47,568 nt of DNA from Muribaculaceae bacterium. Lineage in GTDB: Bacteria > Bacteroidota > Bacteroidia > Bacteroidales > Muribaculaceae. The notes below the pieces were generated by a model. It did not search any database, was not told where the DNA came from, and worked only from the letters and a program-made list of their open reading frames with translations. This document shows positions 1,789 to 18,575 of this stretch, one piece after another; position 1 is the stretch's first letter, and each line of letters starts with the position of its first letter. Made by a program: the position numbers and the translations under genes. The stretch covers positions 1-47,568 of the forward strand of contig JAIDSM010000224.1 of NCBI GenBank assembly GCA_029061225.1. Direction: 5' to 3'.

Positions 1789-3186
1789 TCAAATGTCTTT
1801 GATAGCGTTCTCGTGATTTTTGACACGCCTAATGCTGTCCTCTCTAAGCGTTTGGAGGAGTTTCTGCTCCTGTAATCGTTGCTTTAATATTTCCTTTTTT
1901 TCATATTCAATCTTGGTTCGATCATACTGACTATTGATAGAATCCAGAAAGTCAGTGGAAGCATACAGAATTCTATTCAGGCCCAATCGAATCATCCCCG
2001 TTGAAAATGTCCATACATCATCCTCATGCCGCTCATCCATGAAATTATTTGGATAATAGAAATTCTCAGGATTATAAGGCATTCCATCATATGTCCGGAC
2101 TTCAGCCATTCCGTACTTTTCATGATATAATTCTAATAGAGCTCCAAAATATTTATAATAAGAGAAAATACCTTCAGTACCTTCGATAATCATAAAAGGG
2201 ACTTTCCCATCCGATTCAAAAACCTTTAATTTTATCGGAATTGTATCCAGGACAGTGTTAGTGATAAAGACTCTACCTCTTATGATCTCGTCTTTCGTAG
2301 AACCGCCGGCTGTCTTTTTCGTACTTATTCTGATTCGGTCGTTCATCAACTGAAAGACGGGATGAAGTCTGCCGGAGTTATCCAATTCATAATATCTTTC
2401 ATCAAAGTCTTTAAAGTTCTCATTGGATTTCATATACCGGACCGCAGTATTGTAATCACTGCCTAACCCGATATTCTTCACACTCAACTCTGAATCATAA
2501 TTTTCACGATTTTTGACTCGTTCATAGTTCTCACTCACCTTTTTTTCATATTCTGAATCAGACTGCCACTCGGTCTGACTTTTGGAAGAAGCATATTTAT
2601 TAAATGTGATTATTGCAAGAGGAATAGCTATTACACACACCATAACAAGACCTGTTAGCCAGAAAATCATGCTCTGGTTCCCTTTCGACTGTTTTCCATT
2701 CTGGTTATACAGCTTACTATTAGGAGATTGATAAGATGTGGATAATTGTTGCATATATGAATTCTGATTACTAACAAACCTAACTTTAGATTTATCTAAC
2801 GCATCAGAATTGCCGATATGAGTTGGGTTCAAAGAAGACGCCGTTCTGTTGATGAAGACTGCATAATCCATTTCAGTACATTTACCTATAGCTATTGCAA
2901 CTGAAAAAAGACAAGTCATCAACTCTTTCCTATAACTTCCCTGATATGCTTCAACAAGACGACTTATGTATTCAAAAATACTGTCTTTGTCGCCGGACAA
3001 AGAAACTATGCCGGCAACCCAACCCTTGGAAATACAAGCTTTATAGCTATCCTTAAGTTTCGACTCATGTGCAAATGGGTATAAATCGGTAAGTATACCC
3101 CAAAACCGTGGTTCAGTAAGTATACCTATTCCGTTTTCTTTCACTATTCTTGATACCGTATTAAATAATTCCTTGTATCTACACAT
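1789..3186 (-). CDS. Single-pass membrane protein with helical N-terminal module, function unknown
   Basis: A 465-aa protein of no family I can name. The frame extends upstream to a TTG at 3210, but the ATG at 3186 (MCRYKELF) is preferred because it follows an A-rich leader typical of Bacteroidetes. Visible parts: a mostly helical module (residues 1-105), a polar Asn/Gln/Ser-rich linker (about 125-172), one hydrophobic segment (174-196, IFWLTGLVMVCVIAIPLAII), a soluble domain (about 220-415) and a charged helical tail (420-462, coiled-coil-like). No signal peptide. Orientation is unknown, but N-terminus inside is plausible. It is last in the line of minus-strand defence genes, 252 nt after the caspase-like gene, and is A/T-rich like its two upstream neighbours. 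Inference only: a membrane-located sensor or effector of that module. Confidence 0.7.
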   Translation of the reverse strand: MCRYKELFNTVSRIVKENGIGILTEPRFWGILTDLYPFAHESKLKDSYKACISKGWVAGIVSLSGDKDSIFEYISRLVEAYQGSYRKELMTCLFSVAIAIGKCTEMDYAVFINRTASSLNPTHIGNSDALDKSKVRFVSNQNSYMQQLSTSYQSPNSKLYNQNGKQSKGNQSMIFWLTGLVMVCVIAIPLAIITFNKYASSKSQTEWQSDSEYEKKVSENYERVKNRENYDSELSVKNIGLGSDYNTAVRYMKSNENFKDFDERYYELDNSGRLHPVFQLMNDRIRISTKKTAGGSTKDEIIRGRVFITNTVLDTIPIKLKVFESDGKVPFMIIEGTEGIFSYYKYFGALLELYHEKYGMAEVRTYDGMPYNPENFYYPNNFMDERHEDDVWTFSTGMIRLGLNRILYASTDFLDSINSQYDRTKIEYEKKEILKQRLQEQKLLQTLREDSIRRVKNHENAIKDI

Positions 3187-3438
3187 AGTTATTCTTATTC
3201 TTACGGTCAATGTTTCAGTCTTAATATTCTTTGAAACTTAAACTACTACTCATTAAATCTATCTCGCTCCAGCTTCGCGTCTTCGTTTCACTGAGCATGC
3301 AAGGGTATCCCGCATGATACACTTAAACATCTCATCAGTTGAATCCTTCTTCTACCAAAAATTGAGATTGCATACGTTACTTTCTTTTTCAAAATATTCT
3401 CTTTAGGTTTTTTACCTAATAAACAAAGTATTTTTCAA

Positions 3439-3996
3439 TTAAAAAATTCTGAATTTAAGTAGTTCTCCGTAAAACTTCATTTCCTTTTCAACCTTTGCTT
3501 CGAGCTTGCTTGGCCCCAAACTTTTATGATGGGGGAATAAGTGCATAAGCCATAGTTCAAAAAGGAAACTCTGGTGAAAGTCAACTTTCTTTGCGTAACC
3601 AGTAACAAGTTTGGCTCGTGTCTGCTCTTTGAAATCAAAGACTTCTTGACATGAAATATTTAATGTACTACAAGAACCGAAATGTACTTTTCGTTCGTTA
3701 AATATACCTGGAAACTTCTCTGCTATCTCAGTAAGACTTATGCTCTCGCCATTGGCAAAAGCGATCTCCCCCTCCTTGCCATGAAAACAAAGATAAATTA
3801 TATCAAATCTACTGTAAGCCAATCTTGACAAGTGGTCGAGATAGTATTCAAATTCAGATAGAGTTGCGACCTGCCTGAATACATATTCAGTACCAATAGT
3901 TGTCAGATATTGAAGCAAAGGGTGTACCAATGATTCTTTTTTCATGTCATGAATGGACTGTTCCCATTCTGTTTCAAGGCAAAATATACTACTCAT
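3439..3996 (-). CDS. Small caspase-like (clan CD) cysteine peptidase candidate
   Basis: A 185-aa protein with the layout of a minimal caspase/CHAT-like peptidase. A hydrophobic strand ends in a His-Gly pair (IIYLCFHGKEGE, His72), and about 35 residues later a second strand ends in a Gly-x-Cys (KVHFGSCSTLN, Cys109). This is the His/Cys dyad order and spacing of clan CD peptidases, followed by a third short strand (KLVTGYAKK). I see no prodomain, repeats or membrane segment, so activity would have to come from a partner. Its ATG overlaps the stop of the upstream 1426-aa gene (ATGA, 4 bp shared), which implies translational coupling and matched stoichiometry. Family membership is inferred from motif pattern, not from a profile match; it could instead be an uncharacterised DUF with the same fold. 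Confidence 0.65.
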   Translation of the reverse strand: MSSIFCLETEWEQSIHDMKKESLVHPLLQYLTTIGTEYVFRQVATLSEFEYYLDHLSRLAYSRFDIIYLCFHGKEGEIAFANGESISLTEIAEKFPGIFNERKVHFGSCSTLNISCQEVFDFKEQTRAKLVTGYAKKVDFHQSFLFELWLMHLFPHHKSLGPSKLEAKVEKEMKFYGELLKFRIF

Positions 3997-6900
3997 GCTT
4001 TCAACGAATTACTTGATTCAAGTTCAATTCTCCAATTCGTGCGATCAAATTCATCGTCGAATCCCAACTTTGTCAGTCTTAATTTATCCCCTACCGACAG
4101 CTCGTTAGTGTGAAGACCACATCGAAAAATATCGTTTAAATAAATATGTGAAACTGCATCTCCGATTTCGACATTGAAACCTTTAATCAGCTGTCTTTTC
4201 TTTCCTTTACCTTTAATGGCAGAAACTATTATAGCATCGTAAGATTCTCCGGTGATATAATCTTCAGGTTTATCTATATGTTTTGATTTTTTTGTTATAT
4301 TAACACTATCTAACGGCATCACCACCGGATACTTAACCGTTGAAGTCCAATTAATTAATAGAACAGATATTGGATGATCTGATTTTTCATTTGATTCATT
4401 GTTATACAGCTGGAATATTACGCCACCAACTCTAACTAACTTCTTTGATTTCTTTTTTCCTGATGGTTCTGAATAACCTGCAAATTCTCCCTCCATTGAA
4501 AGTTTATAGGGATAGTAAGCATTTAGTTTAATCAGACGCCCATTTATAATTCCTACTAAACGACCTCTGAAAGTGGAAATCTCATCATAGAGATAATCTA
4601 CTATAACTTGACTTCCAGGATTTAGAATCCCCCATTTCCCACCAAGTTTTACCTTCTTATAGCCTTCCTGTAGTTCGATTACTAGATCTTCTACTATCTT
4701 AAGGTTACTGTCAATTTCATGCTTTAAAGTACCTCTTTTGATTGTACTCTTTCCTTCTTTAAGTGGAGTAATAGAAGAGTACTCGAAGTTTAGCAAAACC
4801 CTGTTATGGCTATCTATAAGACCAAATTTGTTATCCTTTTGTGCTATATATTTATCTATACCCCAATAAGACAGTTTATCGTAAATATGCGGAATGAGTA
4901 TGTTGTTATCTTTTTCTAAACCATATTTTTCGAAGGATTGCGTTATTATTTGACCATCTACAGTATGAGAAATAACCTCAGAAACTATTTTGCCGTTTAT
5001 ATCGACCTTCCCAGTTAGATAGCCCCAACCTCTTGCCTCATTAAGTTTTGTAACAATAAAACAATTTCCGTCAAATCCATCAACAGAACGATAGATGGGT
5101 TCGGCAATAATTTGTCCTGTTGAGGTAGTGATACCCCAACTGTTTCCCTTTTGGACTTTAAGGAAGTTATCATCAAGGACAATTATGGAATCATATTTTG
5201 GTAAGACTATTTCAAAATCATTACTGTCAGTTATACCCCAATATTCATCGAATGTTTCTACAATCGAATAGCCGTTTGCCAGCTTTGATTCTGATTTATA
5301 TTTCTGTTCCTCGATGACAGTACCATCAAGAGCCAATAACTGAGTACGCCCATTAGACGACACTTTAATCGTATCTTCCGAGGTAAATTCAAGACTGTCC
5401 CAAGAAATATCCGTAACTTTCTCACCATTCGACTGCCATAAGCTCCACTTTCCGGAACTACTATTCTTTCTGAATATCTCGTTGCCGACAAAATAAAACT
5501 CTTCCGGCTGTTGACCCTTAAAAAGGTATTTCTTTATTATCAGGTGGTAGATAGAAGATGTATTTGAGATTGTTGACACGACAACTTCATCATCGGATGC
5601 AAATGACGTAAGGGGGTCAATTACACCGAACAAGTACCAGTTACCTTTAGACGCATATAAAATATATCCATTTTGTAGCAGAATAACTTTATCATATTCT
5701 GTCTGTAATCGATAATCGCCGTATCTGTTTATAACTCCATACTTGCCGTCTTTTTCAACCTTGGCGAAATCTCCCATCATAATCGGCTTAGAATCAAAAA
5801 TAGGTTCTATGAAGACTACATCTCCATACTTGAATCCCCATTTTTCACCATCAGAATACGCTTCCACTCCACGTTCATATTTGAGCATTTCCTCAACGGC
5901 ACGATTTCGTTGCTGTTCGTAATTCCAGGCCTCAATAATGTCCTGTTTTAATTTCTCCCTCGTTAGTTTAAGAGGACGCTCTGCTGTTGGATGCTTAAGA
6001 TAGTACGGCTCATCGGCATCATAAAAATATGGTCGACAACTATCATCTTCAAAATGTATCTGATCAAGAGATATGAGGATACCATTCTTACCGTTCTTTT
6101 CAATCTGATAATACCAGGCACCATCTTCGTCCAACCAGTTACATTTTAGCATCAATTCTCCACGACTTTTCGATTCTTCCTGTGCTTCAAGGTCAAACAC
6201 AAATACATTTCGCTTATTAGTGAAGAAAATATCCTTTGAAACAGATCGTCTTAATTCATTATAGTCTACGATTGACTCCAGACCAAATATCCAGAACACT
6301 TGCCTGCGATTTATCAGATAGAAAATGTCCCGGTCATGGACGCGAGCAACATGAGTTGTCGGAGTGACCAGTTCAAATACAACATCTGTATTATTGTATC
6401 GTGCGGTGACATCTGCAAGTCGCCTTTTCATTATTGGCAACTCATCTGAGTATATGTATACACAATCCTCAACATTTGACAGACCCTTATTCAGACTAAG
6501 TTCAGTCCTTAAAGAATCGGCCAACAAATTGCGTAATTCCTTCAGATACGAAAAATCATTCTCACTATTCTCACCATCATCGATAGTAAGGGTATAAGAA
6601 TTATCTCGTTTAAGATCGCAAGGAACATTCTTTACGGCATGAGTAAAGAATTGGACCTCTCTACTCTTTAATCCAAACCCTACACTACGGCTTGAAATCT
6701 TCACCATATTGCCACAACATGGGCAGGTCAGGTATGGAACTCCGGTTCTTGTAGCTTCTTCAAGTTCAAACCTCATACGTGATATCTCCTCTACTGACTT
6801 GTGAAGGAAAACATCATTAGCCGAGATGAATGAGTTTGAACGATGGTTGAATACCTTGTCAATCAATCGCGCGGTCTGAGAATAGACGTTATCATTTTCG

Positions 6901-8273
6901 ATTACAGGGAAATCAACGGTAACAACATCTTTCGACGGAGCTATCGGCTTTTTGCGATATGGGAATTTGGGCTTTCTGTATACAGGGCGTGTCTTATGTG
7001 TTGTTGGTTCAGTCTTTTTTGATGTATCTGAGCCATCAGTCGGTTCACTTCCGGGAGTTGTTGGCTCAGTCTGAGTAGAAACCGGTTCTTCTGAAGCGGG
7101 AGTGCTTGATACTAAAGCATTTATTTTAGCCTCGTATTCCTGAATCTTTGCTTTTAGCTTTTCAATTTCCTTATCTCTTTTAATTAGTTCATTGAGAGTT
7201 GGAGCATTCTTTAACGTATTTTCCAATTCGGCAATTCGCTTTTCTGCCTGAATAAGAGCTTTGCCCTTACTCTGAATTTCACTATACTGCGTGGTGATTG
7301 ATTGTAATTCTTTCTTCAGATCCTCACATTCTCGTATTTTGTCATTGAGTTGATTATTCAATTCACTATTCTTATTGTGGATTGAAGAAAGCTCTTCATT
7401 CAGACGTTGAATATCTGATTCAAGAGCTGAAATTGTCTCTTGTTTTTGTTTAACATCATTTTTCACGGCTGTAAGCAATTCTTCATCTACTGATTCACTT
7501 TGAAGCTTATTGAGCTTTGCGGATAAAGTTTGATTATCAGCCTCTAAAACATTATTTCTTGCCGTAAGAGAATCAATCTGTTCCTGGCTTTCAGACAATA
7601 ATTCGGACAATCTGTTAACTTCTTCTTCAAGAGACCTACGGGAATCTTTCAATTCCAATAACTCAGTCTCTTTAGCACGTAGGCTATCTGATTTTACTGA
7701 TAATTCCTTCTCTGTTTCAGCAGAGATTTTCTGAACATCACTTAAATGATGAGCCAATTCTTGTATCTTGATTTCAAGAGCAGACTTCTGAGAGTTTAGA
7801 TTCTCAATTTGTTCTGTAGATAGTCTTAAATTATCAGCAAATTGTTGAGTTTTAGTATCATTATCCTTAATTAGCTGTTTTTGGATTTCGATAAGGCTCT
7901 CTAACTCCTTCTTTGCCGATTCAAGACTACTGATTTGCTTACGATATTCTTCAATAAGCTCCTTGTCGTTCTCAGATTCCGTTCTTTTTTCTGACAGACT
8001 TCTTTCTAGTACAACAATTCTCTGATTCATTGCAGACAATACAGTGTCCTTAGCTGATATTGTTCCTCGGAGAATGTTTGCCTGATTTTTCAAATTAGAA
8101 ATCTCCTGTTCACAATTATCTATCTGTGAAGCTAATTTCTGCTTCTCGCGCCTTATTTCAATAATGGTTGTTTCCTTTTCAGCTAAAAAATTCTGCTTTG
8201 ACTGAATCTGTTTTTGAAGGGAAGAGATTTCTTCTGAAAAGAGACCTCTGAATATTGATTTAAGGAAATTCAT
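3993..8273 (-). CDS. Giant coiled-coil protein with CoiA-like zinc/nuclease-like core and WG repeats
   Basis: A 1426-aa multidomain protein. Parts in order: a short amphipathic N-terminus (MNFLKSIFRGLF); long heptad-rich coiled coil (about 15-388); a Pro/Thr/Ser linker (about 390-446); a CoiA-like region (about 465-720) with CPCC (517-520), FFTH (His545) and Cys552 as a probable zinc site, then a PD-(D/E)xK-like core with Asp621 and Glu634 and the following DRDIFYLINRRQVFWIF helix/strand; at least eight WG/KWG-type repeats (about 811-1245, for example KWGF 811, KYGV 844, KWGI 1213); and a C-terminal beta-rich domain (about 1300-1426). At the position where CoiA-like enzymes keep Gln or Lys two residues after the Glu, this protein has Val636, so catalysis is doubtful. 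It overlaps the caspase-like gene by 4 bp. Domain names rest on motif reading. I infer a scaffold/sensor that controls the peptidase. Confidence 0.75.
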   Translation of the reverse strand: MNFLKSIFRGLFSEEISSLQKQIQSKQNFLAEKETTIIEIRREKQKLASQIDNCEQEISNLKNQANILRGTISAKDTVLSAMNQRIVVLERSLSEKRTESENDKELIEEYRKQISSLESAKKELESLIEIQKQLIKDNDTKTQQFADNLRLSTEQIENLNSQKSALEIKIQELAHHLSDVQKISAETEKELSVKSDSLRAKETELLELKDSRRSLEEEVNRLSELLSESQEQIDSLTARNNVLEADNQTLSAKLNKLQSESVDEELLTAVKNDVKQKQETISALESDIQRLNEELSSIHNKNSELNNQLNDKIRECEDLKKELQSITTQYSEIQSKGKALIQAEKRIAELENTLKNAPTLNELIKRDKEIEKLKAKIQEYEAKINALVSSTPASEEPVSTQTEPTTPGSEPTDGSDTSKKTEPTTHKTRPVYRKPKFPYRKKPIAPSKDVVTVDFPVIENDNVYSQTARLIDKVFNHRSNSFISANDVFLHKSVEEISRMRFELEEATRTGVPYLTCPCCGNMVKISSRSVGFGLKSREVQFFTHAVKNVPCDLKRDNSYTLTIDDGENSENDFSYLKELRNLLADSLRTELSLNKGLSNVEDCVYIYSDELPIMKRRLADVTARYNNTDVVFELVTPTTHVARVHDRDIFYLINRRQVFWIFGLESIVDYNELRRSVSKDIFFTNKRNVFVFDLEAQEESKSRGELMLKCNWLDEDGAWYYQIEKNGKNGILISLDQIHFEDDSCRPYFYDADEPYYLKHPTAERPLKLTREKLKQDIIEAWNYEQQRNRAVEEMLKYERGVEAYSDGEKWGFKYGDVVFIEPIFDSKPIMMGDFAKVEKDGKYGVINRYGDYRLQTEYDKVILLQNGYILYASKGNWYLFGVIDPLTSFASDDEVVVSTISNTSSIYHLIIKKYLFKGQQPEEFYFVGNEIFRKNSSSGKWSLWQSNGEKVTDISWDSLEFTSEDTIKVSSNGRTQLLALDGTVIEEQKYKSESKLANGYSIVETFDEYWGITDSNDFEIVLPKYDSIIVLDDNFLKVQKGNSWGITTSTGQIIAEPIYRSVDGFDGNCFIVTKLNEARGWGYLTGKVDINGKIVSEVISHTVDGQIITQSFEKYGLEKDNNILIPHIYDKLSYWGIDKYIAQKDNKFGLIDSHNRVLLNFEYSSITPLKEGKSTIKRGTLKHEIDSNLKIVEDLVIELQEGYKKVKLGGKWGILNPGSQVIVDYLYDEISTFRGRLVGIINGRLIKLNAYYPYKLSMEGEFAGYSEPSGKKKSKKLVRVGGVIFQLYNNESNEKSDHPISVLLINWTSTVKYPVVMPLDSVNITKKSKHIDKPEDYITGESYDAIIVSAIKGKGKKRQLIKGFNVEIGDAVSHIYLNDIFRCGLHTNELSVGDKLRLTKLGFDDEFDRTNWRIELESSNSLKA

Positions 8274-8294
8274 GTTTATCCTAATGGTTAATTT

Positions 8295-8432
8295 TTATGA
8301 AGTAATTAATATCATTATCTCAAACTTCAGGCAACAGTTACGTGTAGTTGACGAAACCAGTCGAATTGTCCCTGTATCATTCTTAAAATCAACGTTAGGG
8401 TAATCCCAATTATTGCTCTCAAAAGCACTCAT
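8295..8432 (-). CDS. 45-aa ORF coupled to Res; possible gene remnant
   Basis: A 45-codon frame (begins MSAFESNNWDYPNVDF) whose ATG overlaps the stop codon of the Res gene in an ATGA arrangement. It ends 21 nt before the ATG of the 1426-aa gene. I recognise no family. Its start looks like a real gene start, while the tail (CCLKFEIMILITS) looks like out-of-frame sequence, so it may be the 5' remnant of a longer gene. Alternatively it is a short coupling peptide. Either way it leaves almost no untranslated space between the restriction genes and the caspase-like module. Confidence 0.4.
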   Translation of the reverse strand: MSAFESNNWDYPNVDFKNDTGTIRLVSSTTRNCCLKFEIMILITS

Positions 8433-11400
8433 TTTGCTGAGGTCATTGCGTCGATGAGGTCCTGATAGCATGTGACCTTATGGTACTTGACATTGTCAGT
8501 CGAGATCTCCTTGAAAAGCTGAGTGCAGCAGTCAATCTTGGCATTCTCAATGGCATTGAGCTGCATGGACTGAAGTGATCCTTTGGTCTCAGCGACAAAG
8601 AAAATGTGCTTCACATCTCCTTTATTCATCGCTATTGCCCAGTCAGGAGCATAGTTGCCTACCGGAGTAGGAATCTGGAATGCTCGCGGCAGCTTGGCAT
8701 ATACCACTACCTCATTCGCTTCGTCAAGTTCCTGGGCGAAATTCCTCTCTCCCTTGCTGTCTGTCACGACATAGTCCGTTACATGCTTTGCTGCCTGATA
8801 TGCCTTGTCAAATTCTGCTTTGCTTGACGCAGTGAAGATATCCGAGTCATATTCCCCATCCGTCATATGATAGTGGATATGGTCCACTATCATAGTGGCC
8901 TTCTGCTCCCGGATTATCTGGACAACCTTTCGTATGAATTCCTCCGGGTTGTTCCGGAAAAGGAAAAGCTTCATCGGATAAAGTCCCTGAAGTATTCTTG
9001 CCGCAGTACGCCTGGTTATGTTCGCCCCTTTCGCGATCTGACCGATAAGATCATATTTCACTGAAGAAGTACTTATATCGGTCATTTCTTTCGTACTCGA
9101 AGAAGTATCCCCGAACTCCATCACCATATTCTCATCCTGCTGTCCCTCCACCATTATGTAGCGCAGTTTCCTGACCTGAAGTTCGTCTGTATTCAGGTGC
9201 AGTATTGAATTGGCGATTAACTCCTCCGAGTCATAACTCACGGTATAGACATACTTATGGTTTATTGCCTTCCACAATTTCTGAAATTCCTCTTTACTGA
9301 AGTTTGCATTTAGGCGTTGAGCCGTAAGCTTGGTCACTGATCCGTCTTCGGTGATTCCCTCAAGAAGTGACGGATCAAGTATGGAGTCTATGAGTCTTGT
9401 GACTCCTTCATGAATCAGCTTCAACTTCTCAGGTAGTGAAGCAAGATTTCCAGACTCTCTCTCCTCATGGTATTTCGGAGTAATGTTTCCTGCTATGTCG
9501 ATATAGCCGTTATCTTCCAGGTATATCATAATTCGGCTGGCCTCTGAATCGGAAACGGTATGTGGTTGACCATTGACAGTGATGCTTTTTCCTTTGAAAT
9601 AATCAGTCGATGCCTGTGCGGGCCGCTCTCTGAGCACCTCCCGGATCTCTTTCTGTAAGTCACCTGTAAACCTGCTGTAGCTCTCGTTTGCTATGACGGT
9701 CAGCACGTTTATGTCATGAACAGAGTCTCCGAGCAGTTCCTTATCCTGCCGGATGCCGTTTCTGTCTACACATATGCGTAGCCCGCGGCCCACTTCCTGA
9801 CGTTTGGTAGTCTGGGAGTTGCTGTGACGCAGTGTGCATATCTGGAATACGTTGGGATTGTCCCAGCCTTCACGGAGTGCGGAATGGGAGAAGATAAAGC
9901 GAGTCGGTTCATCGAAACTCAACAGACGCTCCTTATCTCGGAGTATAAGGTCATAGTCGGATGCTTCCTCGCTGACATCGCTGCCACGCTTTGTTTTGGT
10001 GTCTATCATCTTCCCTTTCTTGTCAATAGAGAAGTAACCGCGATGCGTCTCAGACGGGCGGAGCCGTCTCAGGTATTCGTTATAGTCTTCATCAAAGATA
10101 TGGAATTCATCGTTGACAAGACGTGAGTATTCCTCTTCGAAAATGGTTTGGAATATTCCCTTTACCGGTTCTCCGTTCTCGTCATACCTACGATACTTGC
10201 CCACTTCATCAATGAAGAAGAGCGACAGACATTTTATCCCTTTCTTAAACAATTGGCGCTCCTTTTCGAAGTGCGCCTTTATAGTCTCGCGAATCTGTAC
10301 ACGCTGCATGTGAAGTTGATTTGTATCCCCGATTATCTCACCTTTGCGTATAGTCGTTCCGTTTGTGAAAGTGACGTATCCGGTCGGCGAGAGTTTGGTG
10401 CCGGGATTGATCTCCGAGATGTCAAAACCACGGTACTGCTCCATTTCATTCGATTCCACGAATAGGGACTCCCCTGTCGCCAATACTCTGAATTGGCGTC
10501 GGGGTTCTCCGGAAGCGTTCTTGATCTCGATGCAGAGGCGGGCCATTGGAGGGTGTTTTGGCGATAGTATGATATCGTCAAGATACATGTATCCGTTGGT
10601 TCCCCGTAGATTTTTCAGTTCAAAACCGACGACGCGTATTCGTTTCACGAGTCGCTCTCTATAGGCGTCAAGTGCATCGAGGGCATAGACAGTATCATGC
10701 TTAGTGCGGTGAGTCGCCGAGTAATTCAACACGAAAAGCGGATTGAACTTCTTGAGTGCCGCTTGCGTGGCTGCGCCCTCCATCTTCTGCGGTTCGTCCA
10801 TAATGATGATTGGACGGTTTGCGGCAATCACATCAATAGGGCGACGAGAGGCAAACTCATCGCGTTTGGAGTAAATAATTCGGCTCTCCTTGGAGCGTCC
10901 ACCCTCTTTGAGAGAGGCGGCGAACGCCTGAGTGTTTATGATCATCACATTCAGTCCGGCATCTTGAGAGAACTGATCGAGCTGATTGAGGTTGGAGCTA
11001 TTGTAGACAAACCAACGTGCTTTCTTTCCATACTGCTCCATGAAATGTTCCTCCAGCATACGGAAGGACTTAGCCACCCCCTCGCGGATAGCGATACTCG
11101 GCACAACAATTATGAACTTCGACCAACCGTAGAGTTTATTAAGTTCAAACATCGTCTTGATGTAGACGTAGGTCTTGCCTGTGCCGGTTTCCATCTCGAC
11201 ATCAAGGTTGACAGCACCAAGTCCGTCAATCTTGCTGAGAGATTTTGAAAGAGGCACACCTGCGAATGTCTGAACAAAATGGAGATTTTCAAGCAACTGC
11301 TTGGTAGAAAGCTCCACGTCAGCATTGCGATAGCCGTCATCATCACCGTCAAAGCGAATAACACCGGATACCCGCTTACCGAGGTCCCTACGATACTTCG

Positions 11401-11491
11401 AGGCATCACGATTTGGCTGACCGATAAATATATCGGTAGTATTCTTTACGGCGTCAGTCTGATAACCTTGTATCTTGAATTTGAATTTCAT
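8429..11491 (-). CDS. res: Type III restriction enzyme, Res subunit
   Basis: Helicase/endonuclease subunit of a type III restriction-modification system: with Mod it translocates ATP-dependently from unmethylated sites and cuts DNA. The chosen start, ATG at 11491 (MKFKFKIQGYQTDAV), gives 1020 aa, a normal Res length. An ATG at 11536 is in frame but would deepen the overlap with the zeta gene. Seen: Walker A ETGTGKT (101-107), DEPQ motif II (232-235), SAT motif III (258-260), a VGRGLR motif VI, and a C-terminal PD-(D/E)xK nuclease (APDWAIA followed by VAETKGS). All key residues appear present. It overlaps the zeta-like gene by 38 bp upstream and a 45-aa ORF by 4 bp downstream. Confidence 0.93.
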   Translation of the reverse strand: MKFKFKIQGYQTDAVKNTTDIFIGQPNRDASKYRRDLGKRVSGVIRFDGDDDGYRNADVELSTKQLLENLHFVQTFAGVPLSKSLSKIDGLGAVNLDVEMETGTGKTYVYIKTMFELNKLYGWSKFIIVVPSIAIREGVAKSFRMLEEHFMEQYGKKARWFVYNSSNLNQLDQFSQDAGLNVMIINTQAFAASLKEGGRSKESRIIYSKRDEFASRRPIDVIAANRPIIIMDEPQKMEGAATQAALKKFNPLFVLNYSATHRTKHDTVYALDALDAYRERLVKRIRVVGFELKNLRGTNGYMYLDDIILSPKHPPMARLCIEIKNASGEPRRQFRVLATGESLFVESNEMEQYRGFDISEINPGTKLSPTGYVTFTNGTTIRKGEIIGDTNQLHMQRVQIRETIKAHFEKERQLFKKGIKCLSLFFIDEVGKYRRYDENGEPVKGIFQTIFEEEYSRLVNDEFHIFDEDYNEYLRRLRPSETHRGYFSIDKKGKMIDTKTKRGSDVSEEASDYDLILRDKERLLSFDEPTRFIFSHSALREGWDNPNVFQICTLRHSNSQTTKRQEVGRGLRICVDRNGIRQDKELLGDSVHDINVLTVIANESYSRFTGDLQKEIREVLRERPAQASTDYFKGKSITVNGQPHTVSDSEASRIMIYLEDNGYIDIAGNITPKYHEERESGNLASLPEKLKLIHEGVTRLIDSILDPSLLEGITEDGSVTKLTAQRLNANFSKEEFQKLWKAINHKYVYTVSYDSEELIANSILHLNTDELQVRKLRYIMVEGQQDENMVMEFGDTSSSTKEMTDISTSSVKYDLIGQIAKGANITRRTAARILQGLYPMKLFLFRNNPEEFIRKVVQIIREQKATMIVDHIHYHMTDGEYDSDIFTASSKAEFDKAYQAAKHVTDYVVTDSKGERNFAQELDEANEVVVYAKLPRAFQIPTPVGNYAPDWAIAMNKGDVKHIFFVAETKGSLQSMQLNAIENAKIDCCTQLFKEISTDNVKYHKVTCYQDLIDAMTSAK

Positions 11492-12092
11492 TTTCAGGTA
11501 AAATGTTACTTGCCCAATCAGGCAAAGATTCAACATACATTTTACCTAAAATACCGTCAGTAAGTCTGAAAAGTGGCTGTATCGGCATATCATCTGCTGA
11601 GTTATCATATACATACAGCCGATCAACCTCTTGCGCAATGTCACTGCAATTTATTATTGATTTGGAATACCTTGAGATGATTTTTGCGATTGGAACATCA
11701 TGTCCTCCTTTCATAACCCTTCTGGCAATACGGGCAGCATTGATAGTAGGATTATTTGTGGATATAAAGAAAAGTCTAACAAAATAACCAGCCTCTTTAG
11801 CTCTTCTGATAAAATCAATTTTATCTGGAGCTGACATGACAGTTTCGAAAATGAGGCTTTTCCGTTGGACAAGACATTGCTCCCGCATTTCCGAACAATA
11901 AACAGCTGCATTTCTGACTGCATCCGGGGAGTTCCAATCCCCAAATTTTTCATTTGCTATAATGTCCGGATTAATGTAGATGGCATCCTCAAGCCAGTCG
12001 CTTTTCAGCAATTGACTCGTTACTGTAGTCTTACCAGATCCATTAGGTCCGGCAATAACTATTAGAACTGGATTATGTCCATCTTTGCGCAT
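11454..12092 (-). CDS. Zeta-toxin-type kinase
   Basis: A 212-aa P-loop kinase of the zeta/PezT-like family. Known members phosphorylate UDP-activated sugars or other small molecules, and the homologous group also includes non-toxic kinases. Seen: Walker A AGPNGSGKT (14-22), NPD with Asp43 (substrate/catalytic position), FETVMS with Glu83, and a basic stretch RRVMKGGHDVP followed by an Arg-containing helix. It sits between Mod and Res, preceded by a 63-aa antitoxin-like gene with an 18-nt gap, and overlaps Res by 38 bp. The combination reads as a toxin-antitoxin pair built into the restriction operon, perhaps as an addiction or abortive back-up; that role is inferred. Confidence 0.85.
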   Translation of the reverse strand: MRKDGHNPVLIVIAGPNGSGKTTVTSQLLKSDWLEDAIYINPDIIANEKFGDWNSPDAVRNAAVYCSEMREQCLVQRKSLIFETVMSAPDKIDFIRRAKEAGYFVRLFFISTNNPTINAARIARRVMKGGHDVPIAKIISRYSKSIINCSDIAQEVDRLYVYDNSADDMPIQPLFRLTDGILGKMYVESLPDWASNILPENEIQIQDTRLSD

Positions 12093-12110
12093 ATCCGCGA
12101 GATCGTATCA

Positions 12111-12370: not shown

Positions 12371-14239
12371 TTATAAAATTTTCCGGATTGTGTCCGGAGA
12401 GTAATGCTTAAATATCTGCTCGAAGTTGTCAAGGACATTGTCATTGGCGGCAGAGGCATCACGCATTACGAAGTATTGAGGCTTCATTTTGGCGATTTCA
12501 GTGACAGTGGACTCGTTAACATCCATATCGAATGTGGCGATAAGATAAGTGCCGTCAACGAAGAAAACCTTTTTGCCGTTGACATCGCGATCTTCAATTT
12601 TGGCAGAGAGTTCGATGCCGAGTTCAGGCAGAACTTGGAACAGGAGGTCAAGCGAAGATCGGTCAGACTTCACATTATCAACGTAGTTGAAAAGGTGCTG
12701 CTCATTGAAATCTTCGGGAGTGTAGAACACATCCTCCATATTTGACGAGTCAAGTTTGAGCACACGGAAACCAGTGTCAAGATCTTGCCCTTGCAATCCT
12801 GCTTCTTCCTTGATTTTCTTTCCTGCTCGGCGTATACGTTCTTCTCCGATTTGGCATATATTGTCATAGCCAGCCTTGCGGGTTTCGCTCTTTTCATCTG
12901 TCACTTCGGGAAGCTGCACCATAATGAACTTGCGATGACCTCCATCCTCAGCGTTCAGCTTCATAACGGCATGAGCAGTTGTAGCACTACCGCTGAAGAA
13001 GTCAAGGATGATATCAGCGTTAGAGGTACCAATAGCACAAAAGTGACCTATTAATAATATGGGTTTGGGGTAACTAAATGGATTTGGAGTAAATAATGCT
13101 TTAATATCATCATTTCCACTTTCTGTTCTGCCGTAAATAGCATCAATAAGAAGACTACGAGGTGTTACACCTTCAGGACGATAGTATTTAGTATAAACTT
13201 TACTGTTCTTAAATACTAGTTCTTCATATTGTGCTTCGACTTTAGTTTTGCTCCATCTCCAACATGATTGTTTGCCTTTAACTATACGTGGACGATATAT
13301 AGTACCATCAGGACCAATAATATCATAAACCAATGAAGGACTAAACTGTATAGAAGCTTTGTCTAACGTTATTAATCCATAATCGCCTTTTTCATCTGAG
13401 AATGGATAGAGATTATCGTCTAATTTATACTTTTTATCTAAGTTCAGACGAAGAAAAGCTGAATCCTTACCAAAGCATAAGATATATTCATGTTCAGTTA
13501 CGACAAATGAAGAATCATTGCCTCCCCCTTGTTTCTTTTTCCAAATAAATTGTGCGACAAAATTGTCCGATCCAAAAATCTCGTCACAAATTTTACGAAG
13601 ATTTTCAATCTCGTTATCATCAATAGAAATGAAGATTACACCATCAGAAGAAAGCAGGTCACGTGCAATTTTCAGACGAGGATATATCATGTTGAGCCAG
13701 TCCGTATGAAAGCGACCATTGCTCTCTGTGTTGCGTTGCATGGGGTCGAGGACTTGGTTGCCGTCCTCGTCAAAGAGACCGCTTGACTGCTCAAACTCAT
13801 CGCGACCCAGTGCAAAGTCGTCATTATAAACGAAGTCGTTGCCGGTATTATACGGAGGGTCAATGTAGATCATCTTGATTTTTCCAAGATAGTTCTCGCG
13901 GAGAACTTTCAACACGTCAAGGTTGTCACCCTCGATATAAAGATTCTCAGTATTCCAAAAATCTTTTGAAGCATTGACATCAGGACGCAGTGTCTTATCT
14001 GTCGGTATATTTGCGAGACGCGAAGCGGCTCGTTTGTCAGGCCATGTGAACTGATAACGTTCTTCTGCTCCTTCAAGCAGAGCCTTCGACAACTCATCGC
14101 GTAGTTTGTCGAAGTCGATGGCAAGTTCCGGCTTACCGTCTTTATTCAGTCGCTCAGTGACACACTGAGGGAACAAAGCGGCAATCTTAGCTACATTCCC
14201 ATCCACAGCGTCAATACTTTTCATTCGTAGTTTTTCCAT
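12371..14239 (-). CDS. mod: Type III DNA methyltransferase, Mod subunit
   Basis: Site-specific adenine methyltransferase that both modifies host DNA and gives the type III complex its sequence specificity. 622 aa. Motif order is beta-class: catalytic DPPYNTG (127-133) comes before the AdoMet-binding DFFSGSATTAHA (413-424). The region between them should carry the target-recognition domain. Two in-frame starts are possible (14239 or 14224, MKSIDAV); both overlap the end of the DUF4391 gene. No simple repeat is seen at the 5' end, so I see no sign of phase variation. It is separated from Res by a toxin-antitoxin-like pair, which is unusual for a type III operon. Confidence 0.93.
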   Translation of the reverse strand: MEKLRMKSIDAVDGNVAKIAALFPQCVTERLNKDGKPELAIDFDKLRDELSKALLEGAEERYQFTWPDKRAASRLANIPTDKTLRPDVNASKDFWNTENLYIEGDNLDVLKVLRENYLGKIKMIYIDPPYNTGNDFVYNDDFALGRDEFEQSSGLFDEDGNQVLDPMQRNTESNGRFHTDWLNMIYPRLKIARDLLSSDGVIFISIDDNEIENLRKICDEIFGSDNFVAQFIWKKKQGGGNDSSFVVTEHEYILCFGKDSAFLRLNLDKKYKLDDNLYPFSDEKGDYGLITLDKASIQFSPSLVYDIIGPDGTIYRPRIVKGKQSCWRWSKTKVEAQYEELVFKNSKVYTKYYRPEGVTPRSLLIDAIYGRTESGNDDIKALFTPNPFSYPKPILLIGHFCAIGTSNADIILDFFSGSATTAHAVMKLNAEDGGHRKFIMVQLPEVTDEKSETRKAGYDNICQIGEERIRRAGKKIKEEAGLQGQDLDTGFRVLKLDSSNMEDVFYTPEDFNEQHLFNYVDNVKSDRSSLDLLFQVLPELGIELSAKIEDRDVNGKKVFFVDGTYLIATFDMDVNESTVTEIAKMKPQYFVMRDASAANDNVLDNFEQIFKHYSPDTIRKIL

Positions 14240-14879
14240 AATCTTTGTAGGGATGCACGGCTCGTGCGTCCGCGGTAGGAGTTATTTGTATTGTCAGTTT
14301 GGCCAGTTCTGAGAATAGTTCCCGCTTACGACGTGGTTGTTTCGTGGAATTCATCTGCTTTTTTAAGGCCTCAATTTGTCTAATGAGTTTATTCCGTTCT
14401 TCATCATTCCTAATTTGTTCGGATAATGAATTGTTTTCCTCGATGGTGAATTGTCCGATTGAGGAAACTATGTTTTCCCAAACGACATCAAGATTGAGTC
14501 CTGACAACGGCAAAGAGATGTCTTCAACTGTTCGCCAAGGGGTACTAAACAACATCGTGTGATATACGGCAAGCATAGCTTCGCCTTCGTAGCGCAGAAG
14601 ATATACAATGCGTTGAGGAATATGCTTGGCAAGGAGTGTGATTGCCTTTGTATCAAAGTCATGTGATTTGAGCGATATTTCCACAACAAATATCTCTTTC
14701 ACTTCGTCACCGGCTGCAATGGCTGGAACTGTACGAGGAGCAATCCAGTTGACAAAGTCAAGACGCGACACATTGCCATCGAAACATTCACGTTGCGATG
14801 GTTTCCAGTCAAACCGCTTATAAAGCTGTGCTTTGGGAAGCGGTCTCTTGACTTCGGTGGATTGGGGGAGATTAAGCAT
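14211..14879 (-). CDS. DUF4391 family protein of the restriction operon
   Basis: A 222-aa protein resembling DUF4391 proteins, which are repeatedly found next to type III-like methyltransferases and SNF2-type helicases; their molecular role is not established. Seen: conserved-looking N-terminus (LYKRFDWKPSQRECF), a central alpha/beta region (EIFVVEISLK, RIVYLLRYEG) and a C-terminal helical stretch (about 160-200, charged, coiled-coil-like). The start shares TAATG with the stop of the preceding 144-aa gene. The last 20 or so residues (from TADARAVHPYKDYG) are encoded by a palindromic repeat at 14251-14271 and probably are not part of the ancestral protein. The 3' end overlaps mod by 29 nt. Confidence 0.8.
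   Translation of the reverse strand: MLNLPQSTEVKRPLPKAQLYKRFDWKPSQRECFDGNVSRLDFVNWIAPRTVPAIAAGDEVKEIFVVEISLKSHDFDTKAITLLAKHIPQRIVYLLRYEGEAMLAVYHTMLFSTPWRTVEDISLPLSGLNLDVVWENIVSSIGQFTIEENNSLSEQIRNDEERNKLIRQIEALKKQMNSTKQPRRKRELFSELAKLTIQITPTADARAVHPYKDYGKTTNEKY
14251..14271. repeat. REP-like palindrome inside the DUF4391 coding end
   Basis: Stem 14251-14259 with 14263-14271 (9 bp, one G-T wobble) and a 3-nt loop. On the minus strand it reads GCGGACGCACG-AGC-CGTGCATCC, nearly identical to the palindrome at 19894-19922. It is translated as ADARAVHPY within the DUF4391 C-terminus, next to the mod start. Confidence 0.65.
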
Positions 14880-15313
14880 TATTCCTCAACTGAAAAAAGA
14901 TATAATCTATCACCATATTTTGCAGTACCCAAAGCACTTCTTGCAATAATACGCAAGATTTTACCTGTATACCTACTCAATAATATCATCTTCGCTGATG
15001 AATAGTCGGAAGGTAATTTCAAAATACGTTCAGGATGATTAGCTATTAGATCATTAGCATCCTCAGTATACTCTGTTCCTTCGATTTTAAACTTATTGAT
15101 ATTGTTGCAACCCCCAACTAAACGATACATAGAAATAGAAGGAAGATCTATCTCAGTTTTAATAGCTGGATAGTCTGACATATGATCTTCTCCAATTATT
15201 TTGATTCTGGCTCCTACAACATACGTAGAATATGATTTACCGTTATAGATCTCATATTCAGTTGCATTATGAGTTATTGAGCCTAATATTTCTTCAATAT
15301 TCTTTTGATTCAT
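14879..15313 (-). CDS. Hypothetical protein in the restriction operon
   Basis: A 144-aa protein (MNQKNIEEILGSITHNATEY...) of no family I recognise. It looks like a compact alpha/beta or mostly beta domain: alternating strands such as YVVGARIKIIGED and KTEIDLPSISMYRLV, then LLSRYTGKILRIIARS. No signal peptide, membrane segment or catalytic motif is evident. It begins right after the helicase stop codon and its own stop overlaps the next start (TAATG), so it is an integral member of the operon. A role as a subunit or specificity accessory of the helicase/DUF4391 pair is a guess from position. Confidence 0.7.
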   Translation of the reverse strand: MNQKNIEEILGSITHNATEYEIYNGKSYSTYVVGARIKIIGEDHMSDYPAIKTEIDLPSISMYRLVGGCNNINKFKIEGTEYTEDANDLIANHPERILKLPSDYSSAKMILLSRYTGKILRIIARSALGTAKYGDRLYLFSVEE

Positions 15314-15314
15314 T

Positions 15315-18300
15315 TTATCTTATTATCAGAAAACATATTAGTTCAAAGTCATCAAGTCCGCGGACTTCGTTTCCGAATAGCGAACCGCTATCTCCATCAA
15401 GGAAGGAGAATAGGTCGGTGGATTCCTTCACCTTGATAAGTGACGAGATGGCATCGCCGAGCAGACGGGAGTAAGTACCCATTCGCTGACCGTCGCGAGT
15501 TTCGGCATTGAACTTACGGCACAAATCAGCTATAGGCTCTGACTTTCCTTTACACAACTTGCGCATTACATCAAGCAGTCCCTTGGGATCAAGATGATTG
15601 ATAAAGACATTTCCCTCTACAGTCTCGGAATTATGCATTTTCACATAGACCATATAGAATGGATGCAGCCGGTTCTTCTTGTCAATGTTGATGTCGTTGT
15701 TGCGATTTTTCAAAACGAAGATTACACCCTGGGGTGAATCTTTACGTGCGGAGGTCAGGGCATGAAGCCCCATCGGAGTATGCTCTATGTCGACACCGCT
15801 TCGCATATATTCAAGGAGGTCAAGTCGGAATTCGTTTAGACCCAAGTCCATGATAGATACACCTGTGCTCATCTCTTCAATATCCACAACTTCCTCCTTC
15901 AACCGCTCCAGCTGGTCACGGCGATACTTCAAGTCACCTTGCTCTTCGATTGTCAGCGGATTATCATCACCGGTTGCGGTCAGCACCGAGACTTTCATTC
16001 GTGCCTCGACACGACCCTTAAGATTTATGTAGTCGTCAAGATCCATATCGGGCCAGAAGTTGACAAGCTGAATCTTCTCGTTTCGGGAGCCAATACGATC
16101 AATTCGTCCGAAACGTTGGATTATCCGCACCGGGTTCCAGTGAATATCGTAGTTAATCAGATAGTCACAGTCTTGCAAGTTCTGACCCTCGGAAATACAA
16201 TCTGTGGCTATCAATACATCAATTTCCTCCTTAAGATTAGGATATAAGGTAGTCCTATCTTTCGAGACTGGAGAGAACAGAGTCAGGACTTTATTGAAAT
16301 CCAACTTTTCTCGGAGTTTCAATGTAGACCGGGCTTCAATATCTCCGGAAACAAGCGCAGTGTTAAGTCCTGTCCGTTCTTTGACAAGGGGAGCAATGTT
16401 CTCGTAGATGTATTGGGCGGTATCAGAAAAAGCAGTAAACACAATGACTTTCTTGTTCTTGCCATTGATAGGGTGTACAAACTTTTCCCTGATCACGTCA
16501 ACGAGCATCTGAAGTTTACTGTCATGTTCCGGCGTAATGTCACCGAGCATGAAAAGGAGGGTATTGAGATTGTCAAGGTCTTTTGAAAGATAATCGCGCC
16601 ACTGGATATAGTCCATATCCTCCAAAGCAATCTTTGTCTTCTTGTTACCTATAAATACTGTATCCTCCCGTTCATCGAAGTCAAGACCGTATGAGAAATC
16701 GTAATCGCACACCATGGATGTGTCCGACTGGCGAGCTTCTAATCTGTCAATAGCTTCAATCGTTGTGGCTATGTATTTCCTTATCCTCTCCAGTGTCAGA
16801 CGGAATGAATTGACGGAGCTTTCAAGACGTTTTAGCAGATTGATGCTCATCAACTGACGGATACCACGCTCACGTCCGGCACGTGAAAGATTACCGAAAC
16901 GTCCGTCTTCACGCGGTTCGGTGTATTTTTCTAACTTACTCGGAAGAATAAAGTCGGAGGGAGTATAGATGGCAAGGTTCAGCTCACTTACACTGACAAA
17001 AATATCGTTGAAGTCGACTGTTTTTGAAAGATCCGTGAGTTTGGGAACCTTTGAAAGCGGTTTCAGCCGCTCCGGGAATCTGCCTATATCGGAGGTGTCG
17101 TAATACTGTTCGATATGCCTTCGGCTACGGGCTATGGTGACGCTATCAAGAACTTCAAAAAAGTCGAAGTTCAGCATCTCTAAAAGTGTGCCGGTGGTAC
17201 GTTGATCTGCAGGATATTTCGACCATTTGTTGAAAGCCGCCTGTGCCTGACGGAAAATGTCGTCAAGCGAACTTGTGGTCTTCAACTTTGCGTCCATCTG
17301 TGAGCTGTCGCCCTCGTAGGCAAGCGCGAGCTGATTTCGCAGGTCATTGAAACGGTTGTTGACAGGCGTAGCCGAAAGCATCAGCACTTTGGTTTTTACT
17401 CCGGAGCGGATTACCTTATTCATCAACTGGAGATAGCGGTTCTCACGGGGATTCTCGTCATTCTCATCTGTGGTGACTTTGCCTCCGTTACGGAAGTTGT
17501 GGCTCTCGTCAATGACAACGAGGTCATAGTTACCCCAGTTTATATGTTCAAGGTCAAGACCATTGCTTTGTCCTGACTGACGCGAGAGGTCGGTATGATA
17601 GAGTATGTCATATCGCAGGCGGTCAGCGACAAGAGGATTATTCTTGTAGTTGGAACGGTAAGTAACCCAGTTGTCGTGAAGTTTCTTCGGGCAGAGAACA
17701 AGAACGGACTTGTTGCGGTTCTCGTAATATTTGATTACAGACAAAGCCGTGAAAGTCTTTCCAAGACCTACGGAGTCAGCGAGTATACAGCCGTTATACT
17801 TTTCCAACTTATTGATGATAGCAAGAGCAGCATCACGTTGGAAATTGTATAGTTTATTCCAGATTACACTCGATTTGAAGCCTGTTGCCTCATTGGGCAA
17901 TACATCCTCAGAAATATCTTCAAGGAACTCGCTGAAAATATTGTATAGAGTAACAAAATAGATAAACTCCGGAGAGTTTTCCTTATAAGCGTTGGTAATG
18001 TTGTCAAGCACCTGTTCAGTCACTACCTGCAACTGACCACTGTCATTCCATATCTGATTAAAAATTTGCAGATACTGTTGAGAGAATGGAGCTTCTAACT
18101 TGTTGATGGCAGTTGCAAGTTGATTGCCACGTTCACAGCCAAGTTCAACCGTCGTAAAACCATTGAGCGGCATATATGTCGTATCGTCGACTGTAGCGAA
18201 AGCCGGCATTCCGGCATTGGTACGGTTGGACTTGAAGCATACTTTCTTCCGGATCCAATCAGCACATTCCTTTGCAACCGCTTTCAACGACAGTTCATTG

Positions 18301-18575
18301 CGGAGCTTGATTTCAAACTCCGAGCCGTAAAGGTCACGTTCACGATTCAACCGAGGGATATAAAACTCCCGCTTCTGTTTATCCGCCTTTTCGGTAATAA
18401 ATGATGGAGAAGTAAAAATAAAACGCAGTTCTGAAATATCTTCCAGCTTCTCCTTCAACTCCTGGAAAGCATAGATGGAGAAACTTGACGCAGCAATCGT
18501 CACCTTTGAGCCGGAGCGCAAGGTTGCAATCATATCCTCTTTAAGCGTCTTGTTGATGTTGTCTATGATTTCCAT
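15315..18575 (-). CDS. SNF2-type helicase with PLD-like N-terminal region
   Basis: A 1086-aa superfamily 2 DNA translocase of the kind found in multi-gene defence islands. The ATG at 18575 (MEIIDNINK) is chosen over a GTG four codons upstream. Seen: an N-terminal alpha/beta region (1-150; LRSGSKVTIAASSFSIYAF) resembling the phospholipase D-like part of such helicases, without a clear HxK motif; Walker A DSVGLGKT (267-274); DESH motif II (356-359); SATP motif III; and C-terminal helicase motifs ending in QRFGRIDRIGS (motif VI). It is first in the operon after a long structured leader, and its start codon lies in a hairpin. It is distinct from Res, so the operon has two translocating motors. 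Confidence 0.88.
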   Translation of the reverse strand: MEIIDNINKTLKEDMIATLRSGSKVTIAASSFSIYAFQELKEKLEDISELRFIFTSPSFITEKADKQKREFYIPRLNRERDLYGSEFEIKLRNELSLKAVAKECADWIRKKVCFKSNRTNAGMPAFATVDDTTYMPLNGFTTVELGCERGNQLATAINKLEAPFSQQYLQIFNQIWNDSGQLQVVTEQVLDNITNAYKENSPEFIYFVTLYNIFSEFLEDISEDVLPNEATGFKSSVIWNKLYNFQRDAALAIINKLEKYNGCILADSVGLGKTFTALSVIKYYENRNKSVLVLCPKKLHDNWVTYRSNYKNNPLVADRLRYDILYHTDLSRQSGQSNGLDLEHINWGNYDLVVIDESHNFRNGGKVTTDENDENPRENRYLQLMNKVIRSGVKTKVLMLSATPVNNRFNDLRNQLALAYEGDSSQMDAKLKTTSSLDDIFRQAQAAFNKWSKYPADQRTTGTLLEMLNFDFFEVLDSVTIARSRRHIEQYYDTSDIGRFPERLKPLSKVPKLTDLSKTVDFNDIFVSVSELNLAIYTPSDFILPSKLEKYTEPREDGRFGNLSRAGRERGIRQLMSINLLKRLESSVNSFRLTLERIRKYIATTIEAIDRLEARQSDTSMVCDYDFSYGLDFDEREDTVFIGNKKTKIALEDMDYIQWRDYLSKDLDNLNTLLFMLGDITPEHDSKLQMLVDVIREKFVHPINGKNKKVIVFTAFSDTAQYIYENIAPLVKERTGLNTALVSGDIEARSTLKLREKLDFNKVLTLFSPVSKDRTTLYPNLKEEIDVLIATDCISEGQNLQDCDYLINYDIHWNPVRIIQRFGRIDRIGSRNEKIQLVNFWPDMDLDDYINLKGRVEARMKVSVLTATGDDNPLTIEEQGDLKYRRDQLERLKEEVVDIEEMSTGVSIMDLGLNEFRLDLLEYMRSGVDIEHTPMGLHALTSARKDSPQGVIFVLKNRNNDINIDKKNRLHPFYMVYVKMHNSETVEGNVFINHLDPKGLLDVMRKLCKGKSEPIADLCRKFNAETRDGQRMGTYSRLLGDAISSLIKVKESTDLFSFLDGDSGSLFGNEVRGLDDFELICFLIIR

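Follow-up and report, generated by a model that had tools for sequence, protein, structure and literature searches.

We describe a gene encoding a short protein of the Pfam family DUF6642 that occurs as an interchangeable last gene of unrelated defence operons and whose product probably belongs with the caspase-like (clan CD) peptidases, relatives of the caspases behind animal cell death, judging from profile comparison and sequence motifs. The gene lies in a 47,568-nucleotide (nt) stretch of DNA from a Muribaculaceae bacterium, presumably of gut origin (GenBank assembly GCA_029061225.1, contig JAIDSM010000224.1; this whole stretch is hereafter the window), which is one contig of a 287-contig genome. 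There it stands behind a type III restriction–modification (RM) operon and a gene for a 1,426-amino-acid (aa) WG-repeat protein, hereafter WG1426. Its modularity is evident from placement at the 3′ end of unrelated operons, from DNA homology between loci that is limited to the open reading frame (ORF), and from the mosaic structure of the copies, and a profile relationship to caspases is accompanied by a conserved His and Cys. Protease activity and a role in defence we infer from the sequence. The explanation that we prefer, and to which we give an even chance, is that DUF6642 is a caspase-like plug-in protease for defence operons that target DNA and probably acts as an abortive or backup effector, with a generic trigger and substrate. 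The observations suggest that different immune systems share one add-on protease.

The 185-aa protein scores 75 bits against DUF6642 (PF20347; cut-off 27), over residues 3–184 of 185 and profile positions 3–180 of 182. The initial annotation of the window had missed this membership in a named family, and our literature search found no paper naming DUF6642. It had also called the protein a minimal caspase-like peptidase with His72 and Cys109 as key residues, a prediction now backed by profile comparison and residue conservation (Table 1). His72, Gly73 and Cys109 are kept in all 15 relatives outside one bacterial family (f47, see below). A DUF6642 profile of 15 proteins, of which hhalign kept 14, aligned with a profile of bacterial Peptidase_C14 (C14) domains at P = 8.5e-5 (probability 60%, 79 columns) and with a CHAT profile at P = 1e-3 (probability 21%, 50 columns); both alignments place His72-Gly73 and Cys109 on the catalytic residues. 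The C14 profile comprised 22 of 25 domains (L151, L152 and L158 were omitted, as their frame was not recovered), and the CHAT profile all 25. Reversed profiles gave P ≥ 0.42, the positive control of C14 against CHAT gave P = 8.1e-6 (84%), and 17 other families from the same loci, most of them holding only two or three sequences, gave P ≥ 0.14. The protein thus combines the His-Gly/Cys order and spacing of clan CD with a profile similarity beyond chance. A Pfam scan of the single protein returned no match to Peptidase_C14 (PF00656) or CHAT (PF12770) at E ≤ 1, under HMMER filters that drop most matches above about 0.1, and a sequence search of the PDB found no significant relative.

In family f47 of the same class, perhaps Flavobacteriaceae (28 genomes, L010–L037), DUF6642 has one match per genome, and in all 28 the catalytic His and Cys are both replaced. 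By their sequences these copies are apparently an old, inactive branch of DUF6642; 5 of the 28 were used in the tree.

DUF6642 was found in 8 of 101 relatives searched, the window's own genome included; by rank, it occurs in 7 of 111 genomes of the genus (five with the close type) and in 8 of 397 genomes of the family, genomes that are often incomplete. A close clade with support of 100/99 comprises the window copy and the full-length copies of three genomes of the same genus (G031, G041 and G032) and of one from another genus of the family (G775), which are 69–77% identical to the window protein. A sixth close copy, in genome G025 of the genus, is a fragment and was left out of both profile and tree. 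All five close copies found in the genus, the broken one included, end a defence operon, and these operons are of three unrelated kinds. In G031, a type III RM operon and a WG1426 homologue precede DUF6642. In G032 it ends a BREX operon of the order BrxA-BrxB-BrxC-PglX-(707 aa)-PglZ-BrxL-(503 aa)-(510 aa), the last of these with a HEPN match below the cut-off. The G041 copy ends a long same-strand BREX run (PglZ, BrxL, a protein kinase, vWA, PP2C, a DpdF-like helicase, a DUF1848-like gene, an exo/endonuclease-phosphatase and a 369-aa gene), with 192 nt separating it from the 369-aa gene. In G025, the broken 5′ fragment lies 28 nt behind the Gabija genes GajA-GajB (5.9e-204 and 9.3e-171). BrxL matches are present in 20 of the 111 genomes, at 60% identity or more in 11, two of which (G032 and G041) carry DUF6642. 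A scan of genome contigs restricted to two peptide patterns returned three loci, the same as L040–L042. The link to phage defence that the initial annotation had proposed gains strength from the placement of the six closest copies, five of which (the fragment among them) lie in defence-operon tails.

Other copies are more distant. The window's own genome holds a second, distant DUF6642 (L047:9224-9811, G000:C158) upstream of a RhuM-like gene, with an AlbA-like gene between them (both assigned by eye), and the copy in G1007 (L135:9819-10421) is likewise upstream of a RhuM-like gene (by eye). In G943, roughly 3 kb separates a distant copy from a type I RM specificity gene. The copy in G1009 is beside a deiminase gene, followed by AbiH, which is two genes from DUF6642; a peptidyl-arginine-deiminase-like gene is near DUF6642 both there (L098:730-2210, Pfam PAD_porph) and in G863 (L099:9555-11607, by eye). 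No DUF6642 was detected among 50,697 phage records, or in IMG/VR by single-protein scans that reach close relatives only. The one plasmid match, 30% identical and from Brevibacterium, has an abortive-infection-family gene upstream on the same strand and a 401-aa opposite-strand ORF between the two.

DNA alignment places the start and end of homology between DUF6642 loci no more than 36 nt from the ORF ends, with two exceptions: homology of the window and G031 extends into the shared WG gene, and the match of G025 ends early. Intact copies are 73–87% identical to one another. Between the window and G031, the WG genes are 84–90% identical in DNA and the DUF6642 genes only 73.3%, and the G031 DUF6642 is closer to the two BREX copies (81.6 and 80.2% nt identity) than to that of the window. 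In 60-nt bins, the window/G031 comparison gives 93–97% in bins ending −77 to +43 around the ATG, 83% in the next bin and 62–77% later, so that identity drops from about 95 to about 72% within DUF6642. The WG end upstream dips too (65–80% in bins ending −317 to −137), a patchy pattern rather than one clean break. When the G031 copy is compared with the BREX copy of G041, the first two bins (codons 1–66) are 96 and 93% identical and the last 86 codons 70 and 73%; where both encode the same amino acid, codons are identical at 51 of 61 positions in the first two bins and at 28 of 67 in the last two. These figures are to be read with unequal constraint in mind, as the first 30 codons show the highest identity in 14 of 15 pairs and tie with the next bin in the fifteenth (G041–G032). 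The mosaic identity pattern points to recombination as the means by which DUF6642 copies have been exchanged between different operon kinds.

Under the preferred explanation, a front-line DNA-targeting system and DUF6642 would share one transcript and hence be co-expressed, and the protease would stay inactive until infection. Once triggered, it would cleave a host or common target, such that infected cells stop growth or die when the DNA-targeting front line fails. Both trigger and substrate would probably be generic, and not a neighbour protein, because closely similar DUF6642 copies serve different operon kinds; in the window, the coupled WG1426 may scaffold or switch the peptidase. In a stronger form, which we put forward tentatively as possible, DUF6642 would be a universal plug-in executioner, with one infection-linked trigger and one substrate, that is added unchanged to BREX, Gabija or type III RM operons, turns clearance systems into cell-suicide systems, and relies on its conserved 5′ end for moving between them by homologous recombination.

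Several observations weigh against this explanation. The hhalign matches span only a central part of the protein (C14, 79 columns; CHAT, 50) and carry moderate probabilities, measured against control families that are mostly very small. A profile search of the PDB with DUF6642 gave nothing significant (three Schlafen chains at E 1.3–1.5), and a broader DUF6642 profile gave five PDB matches, none significant, one of which was an ancestral caspase-3/6/7 at E = 0.24. The gene is rare (7/111 genus genomes, 8/397 family genomes), the close copy in G775 stands alone, the Gabija case is a dead 5′ fragment, and intact copies are found on two operon kinds only, type III RM and BREX. Among 10 distant relatives that bear the His and Cys, two have recognised defence genes nearby, as judged by a partial hidden Markov model scan and otherwise by eye. 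Finally, variable 3′ slots also gather unrelated genes, and position alone is no proof of function.

A different account starts from WG1426. In the window its gene and DUF6642 share an ATGA overlap of four bases (3993–3996), correctly reported in the initial annotation, and the same overlap is seen in G031. The two could form a dedicated pair of sensor or scaffold and protease, in which WG1426 would sense invading nucleic acid by its zinc and nuclease-like region and its WG repeats and would activate, or be cut by, the coupled peptidase, the BREX and Gabija copies being later loans. The pair occurs in two genomes behind the same operon, and protease-activated nuclease pairs are known from Hachiman, AVAST and canu (PMC12799240). 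We nevertheless consider a dedicated pair unlikely, given how the two genes are distributed. The region behind the restriction subunit gene (Res) could be read for 10 of 13 full-length Res loci, the window included; WG1426 follows Res in three of these 10 (window, G031 and G1094), and DUF6642 follows WG1426 in two of the three. The WG gene of G031 is split over contigs C12 and C34; the window stretches matched by the two contig ends overlap by 119 nt, and the order Res-WG-DUF6642 is very likely there. The G1094 homologue is full-length and 73% identical, and tblastn found no DUF6642 remnant behind it; G898 has a distant relative of the same architecture (about 26% identity), with no DUF6642 within the roughly 1 kb available behind the gene. 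DUF6642 is in turn present without WG1426 in G032, G041, G025 and G775, comparison of the window with G031 shows different histories for the two genes, and the form coupled to DUF6642 has a degraded nuclease motif. We therefore rejected WG1426 as an obligate partner of DUF6642: it is tail cargo of the type III RM operon in its own right.

The protein itself consists of a coiled coil, a CxxC/H/C zinc-like site, a degenerate PD-(D/E)XK-like region and WG repeats, much as the initial annotation had described it and at the coordinates given there (3993–8273, minus strand). In Pfam, DUF7830 is above the cut-off and DUF6035 just below it (20.5 against 22.6 bits). The G031 homologue is 89% identical over aa 1–1042 and 80% over aa 1004–1425. 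The description of the protein as nuclease-like stands in part, since Asp621 and Glu634 of the motif are present and the Gln is lost: it is replaced by Val636 in the window, G031 and G1094, for which reason we rejected WG1426 as an intact PD-EXQ nuclease. The motif variants are FELV in these three, FELQ in G451 and G518, LELQ in G098 and FKLQ in G898; the ELQ-bearing relatives in G451, G098 and G518 lack the coiled coil. A PD-EXQ site is known from CoiA proteins (PMC1189080). Like the nucleases of the CoiA family, WG1426 and its relatives have the Asp and, save G898, the Glu of a PD-EXQ-like motif behind a Cys/His cluster; unlike them, WG1426 has its motif fused to a coiled coil and WG repeats, has Val for Gln in three copies, and shows no Pfam match to CoiA (PF06054); 'CoiA-like' was a label of the initial annotation. 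A PDB sequence search with the nuclease-like region found no significant relative, and from its residues we consider this region to be probably nucleic-acid binding and not catalytic. PADLOC matches of WG1426 to LmuB and JetC were rejected, being confined to the coiled coil.

DUF6642 might alternatively be a regulatory protease that tunes the expression or turnover of the neighbouring defence operon, on the model of CapP, a protease activated by single-stranded DNA that cleaves the repressor CapH. PMC13373217 describes CapW/BrxR, CapH+CapP and CapK+CapS as add-ons common to unrelated defence operons, BREX included, and DUF6642 resembles CapH+CapP and the other 'controllers of adjacent pathways' in being an add-on gene, in one case a protease, that recurs across such operons. 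The position differs, however: CapK+CapS is described there as next to the operon promoter and is likened in its action to CapW and CapH+CapP, whereas DUF6642 comes last in its operon. Moreover, no repressor partner travels with DUF6642, because the DNA homology is confined to one ORF. A regulatory role is accordingly, in our estimate, quite unlikely.

Rather less probable again is that DUF6642 is a passive passenger, in which case the 3′ ends of defence operons in the genus would serve as insertion slots where mobile genes accumulate without any functional tie. These 3′ ends are indeed variable slots. Behind Res, the next ORF is on the opposite strand in 6 of the 10 loci, and G030 has other genes. 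Behind BrxL, which could be read for 8 of the 11 matches at 60% identity or more (G032 and G041 included; G944 is cut by a contig end), G003 lacks a same-strand neighbour; in G1099, G1073 and G915 the place is taken by other genes, and in G017 by a portion of the G041 kinase block with other genes after it. Passive carriage would also accommodate the broken copy in G025 and an exo/endonuclease-phosphatase gene (Exo_endo_phos) that is 77% identical between the BREX tail of G041 (L041:8766-9542) and the type III RM tail of G030 (L233, 4163-4930, reversed strand). This gene is a second cargo common to BREX and type III RM tails. Yet the recurrence of two unrelated genes in defence tails, together with the conserved catalytic residues of DUF6642, suggests selection for place, and the ATGA coupling is retained in two genomes. 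The BREX loci of G041 (L041, L103; G041:C2) and G017 (L211) carry, after BrxL, an added block of genes for a protein kinase, vWA and PP2C; the first genes of this block were also seen in G944 (L209).

The initial annotation had joined WG1426, the peptidase and a downstream 473-aa membrane protein into one fixed module of sensor-scaffold, effector and membrane component, and had held that failure of the three to co-occur elsewhere would speak against it. The three minus-strand ORFs are present in the order and at the coordinates that it gave (3439–3996 for the 185-aa gene), but the set is not a unit. The triple was not found again, and the WG1426–DUF6642 pair recurs once, in G031; DUF6642 is found without WG1426 on BREX and Gabija operons and alone, and WG1426 without DUF6642 in G1094 and G898. 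The 473-aa gene is 228 nt from DUF6642 if translated from its TTG and 252 nt if from an in-frame ATG, and no homologue of it was found in the stretches fetched around the other close DUF6642 copies. Its relatives, 26–43% identical, are elsewhere in 7 other genomes of 120 searched, and the four that were fetched (L130, L131, L132 and L133) have no DUF6642 nearby; the gene is not part of the feature. That the three genes act as one defence system is hardly credible, their common strand and order in the window being set against a spacing of more than 220 nt, the missing homologues around other close copies, and the different gene surroundings of the membrane gene's relatives. The apparent module would instead seem to have been put together from independently moving tail genes. 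In the genus, relatives of the 473-aa gene are longer (568–627 aa), and three of the four fetched lie amid neighbours of similar sizes; these may form a conserved cluster, a comparison of sizes only.

Table 1. Positions in the window of DUF6642, its predicted catalytic codons and the surrounding features.
Feature	Position	Strand	Basis
DUF6642 caspase-like peptidase (predicted), interchangeable last gene	3439..3996	-	PF20347 7.9e-21; profile match to C14
His72 codon (predicted catalytic), Gly73 next	3781..3783	-	Conserved 15/15; aligned to catalytic HG of C14 and CHAT
Cys109 codon (predicted nucleophile)	3670..3672	-	Conserved 15/15; aligned to catalytic Cys of C14 and CHAT
Junction kept with operon	3893..4133	-	83-97% identical to G031 in 60-nt bins, from ~137 nt before to ~103 nt after the DUF6642 ATG; beyond, 62-77%
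WG1426, tail cargo of type III RM operon	3993..8273	-	Pfam WG 3e-15, DUF7830 1.1e-8
WG1426 coiled coil (about aa 14-397)	7083..8234	-	Matches coiled-coil families and coiled-coil parts of SMC-like proteins
WG1426 CxxC..H..C site (C517, C520, H545, C552)	6618..6725	-	Invariant in 7/7 aligned proteins, window included
WG1426 PD-EXQ nuclease motif remnant (D621, E634, V636 for Q)	6366..6413	-	Alignment
WG1426 WG-repeat region (approximate, about aa 939-1249)	4527..5459	-	PF14903, 4 stretches, best aa 1150-1179; region matched by other WG proteins
Single-pass membrane protein, 473 aa from TTG	1789..3210	-	ORF; translation more likely starts at an in-frame ATG, 3186
Type III restriction subunit (Res), last core gene ahead of cargo tail	8429..11536	-	PADLOC REase_III 2e-283
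Zeta-toxin-like kinase, variable Mod-Res slot	11454..12092	-	PF06414 3.5e-14
Type III DNA methyltransferase (Mod)	12371..14239	-	PADLOC MTase_III 1.9e-214
DUF4391 protein of type III RM operon	14211..14879	-	PF14335 8.7e-29; G031 75% identical
144-aa ORF, apparently variable slot between helicase and DUF4391	14879..15313	-	Pfam: nothing above cut-off
SNF2-type helicase, first gene of type III RM operon	15315..18587	-	Pfam Helicase_C 9.2e-17; PADLOC C3a139 'HKD+Snf2' 2.3e-118

The operon ahead of the cargo tail runs on the minus strand in the order SNF2 helicase, 144-aa ORF, DUF4391, Mod, 63-aa ORF, zeta-like kinase and Res, followed by WG1426, DUF6642 and the 473-aa gene. Mod and Res occur together, as befits a type III RM system, and PADLOC confirms both, in agreement with the earlier placement of these genes directly behind a type III restriction operon. 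Of the further remark that no clear promoter separates Res from WG1426, what stands is that the gap (8274–8428) holds no minus-strand sigma-70-like site, in a scan that does not cover Bacteroidota promoters. Res matches are present in 27 of 73 searched genomes of the genus, the window's own included. G031 has a helicase homologue in the same place (83% identical), and an unrelated 124-aa ORF in the slot between helicase and DUF4391. The gap between Mod and Res (11454–12302 in the window) is a second variable slot of this operon; it holds the zeta-like kinase in the window and G015 and other ORFs in G031, G011 and G1094.

The acquisition of proteases by several defence systems is known. According to PMC12799240 (2025), unrelated immune systems repeatedly acquired proteases, as fused trypsins and as canu caspases. 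DUF6642 resembles the case of canu (CanABC), Hachiman and AVAST in that a protease, caspase-like in canu, is repeatedly acquired by unrelated antiviral systems through modular exchange between defence operons. There, however, the exchanged unit is a metallo-β-lactamase (MBL)-fold pro-nuclease plus a protease, the trypsin is fused to a core gene, and CanA is a caspase with an Ig-like fold, whereas DUF6642 is a single stand-alone gene of 185 aa hosted by BREX, type III RM and, as a remnant, Gabija operons. No MBL match was found in the 10 window genes scanned, and Pfam places no second domain on the 185-aa protein. With Peptidase_C14 and CHAT immunity proteins, such as those of Craspase and Borvo (PMC10952713), DUF6642 shares the His-Gly and Cys pattern by profile alignment; it differs from them in consisting of one short domain, with no TPR, STAND or other sensor parts. 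The word 'caspase' is absent from the main text of a BREX survey (PMC12839542), and our literature searches did not find the DUF6642 family, its hosts or the exchange of one gene.

Operon adjacency at a single locus can mislead, because here an apparent module was assembled from tail genes that move independently. For DUF6642, so far an uncharacterised Pfam family, the analysis provides a probable fold class, a predicted catalytic pair and a probable genomic role. If the preferred explanation is true, the principle of protease acquisition would reach systems normally regarded as DNA-clearing, through a stand-alone caspase-like gene that is exchanged among BREX and type III RM operon tails and has a remnant behind Gabija.

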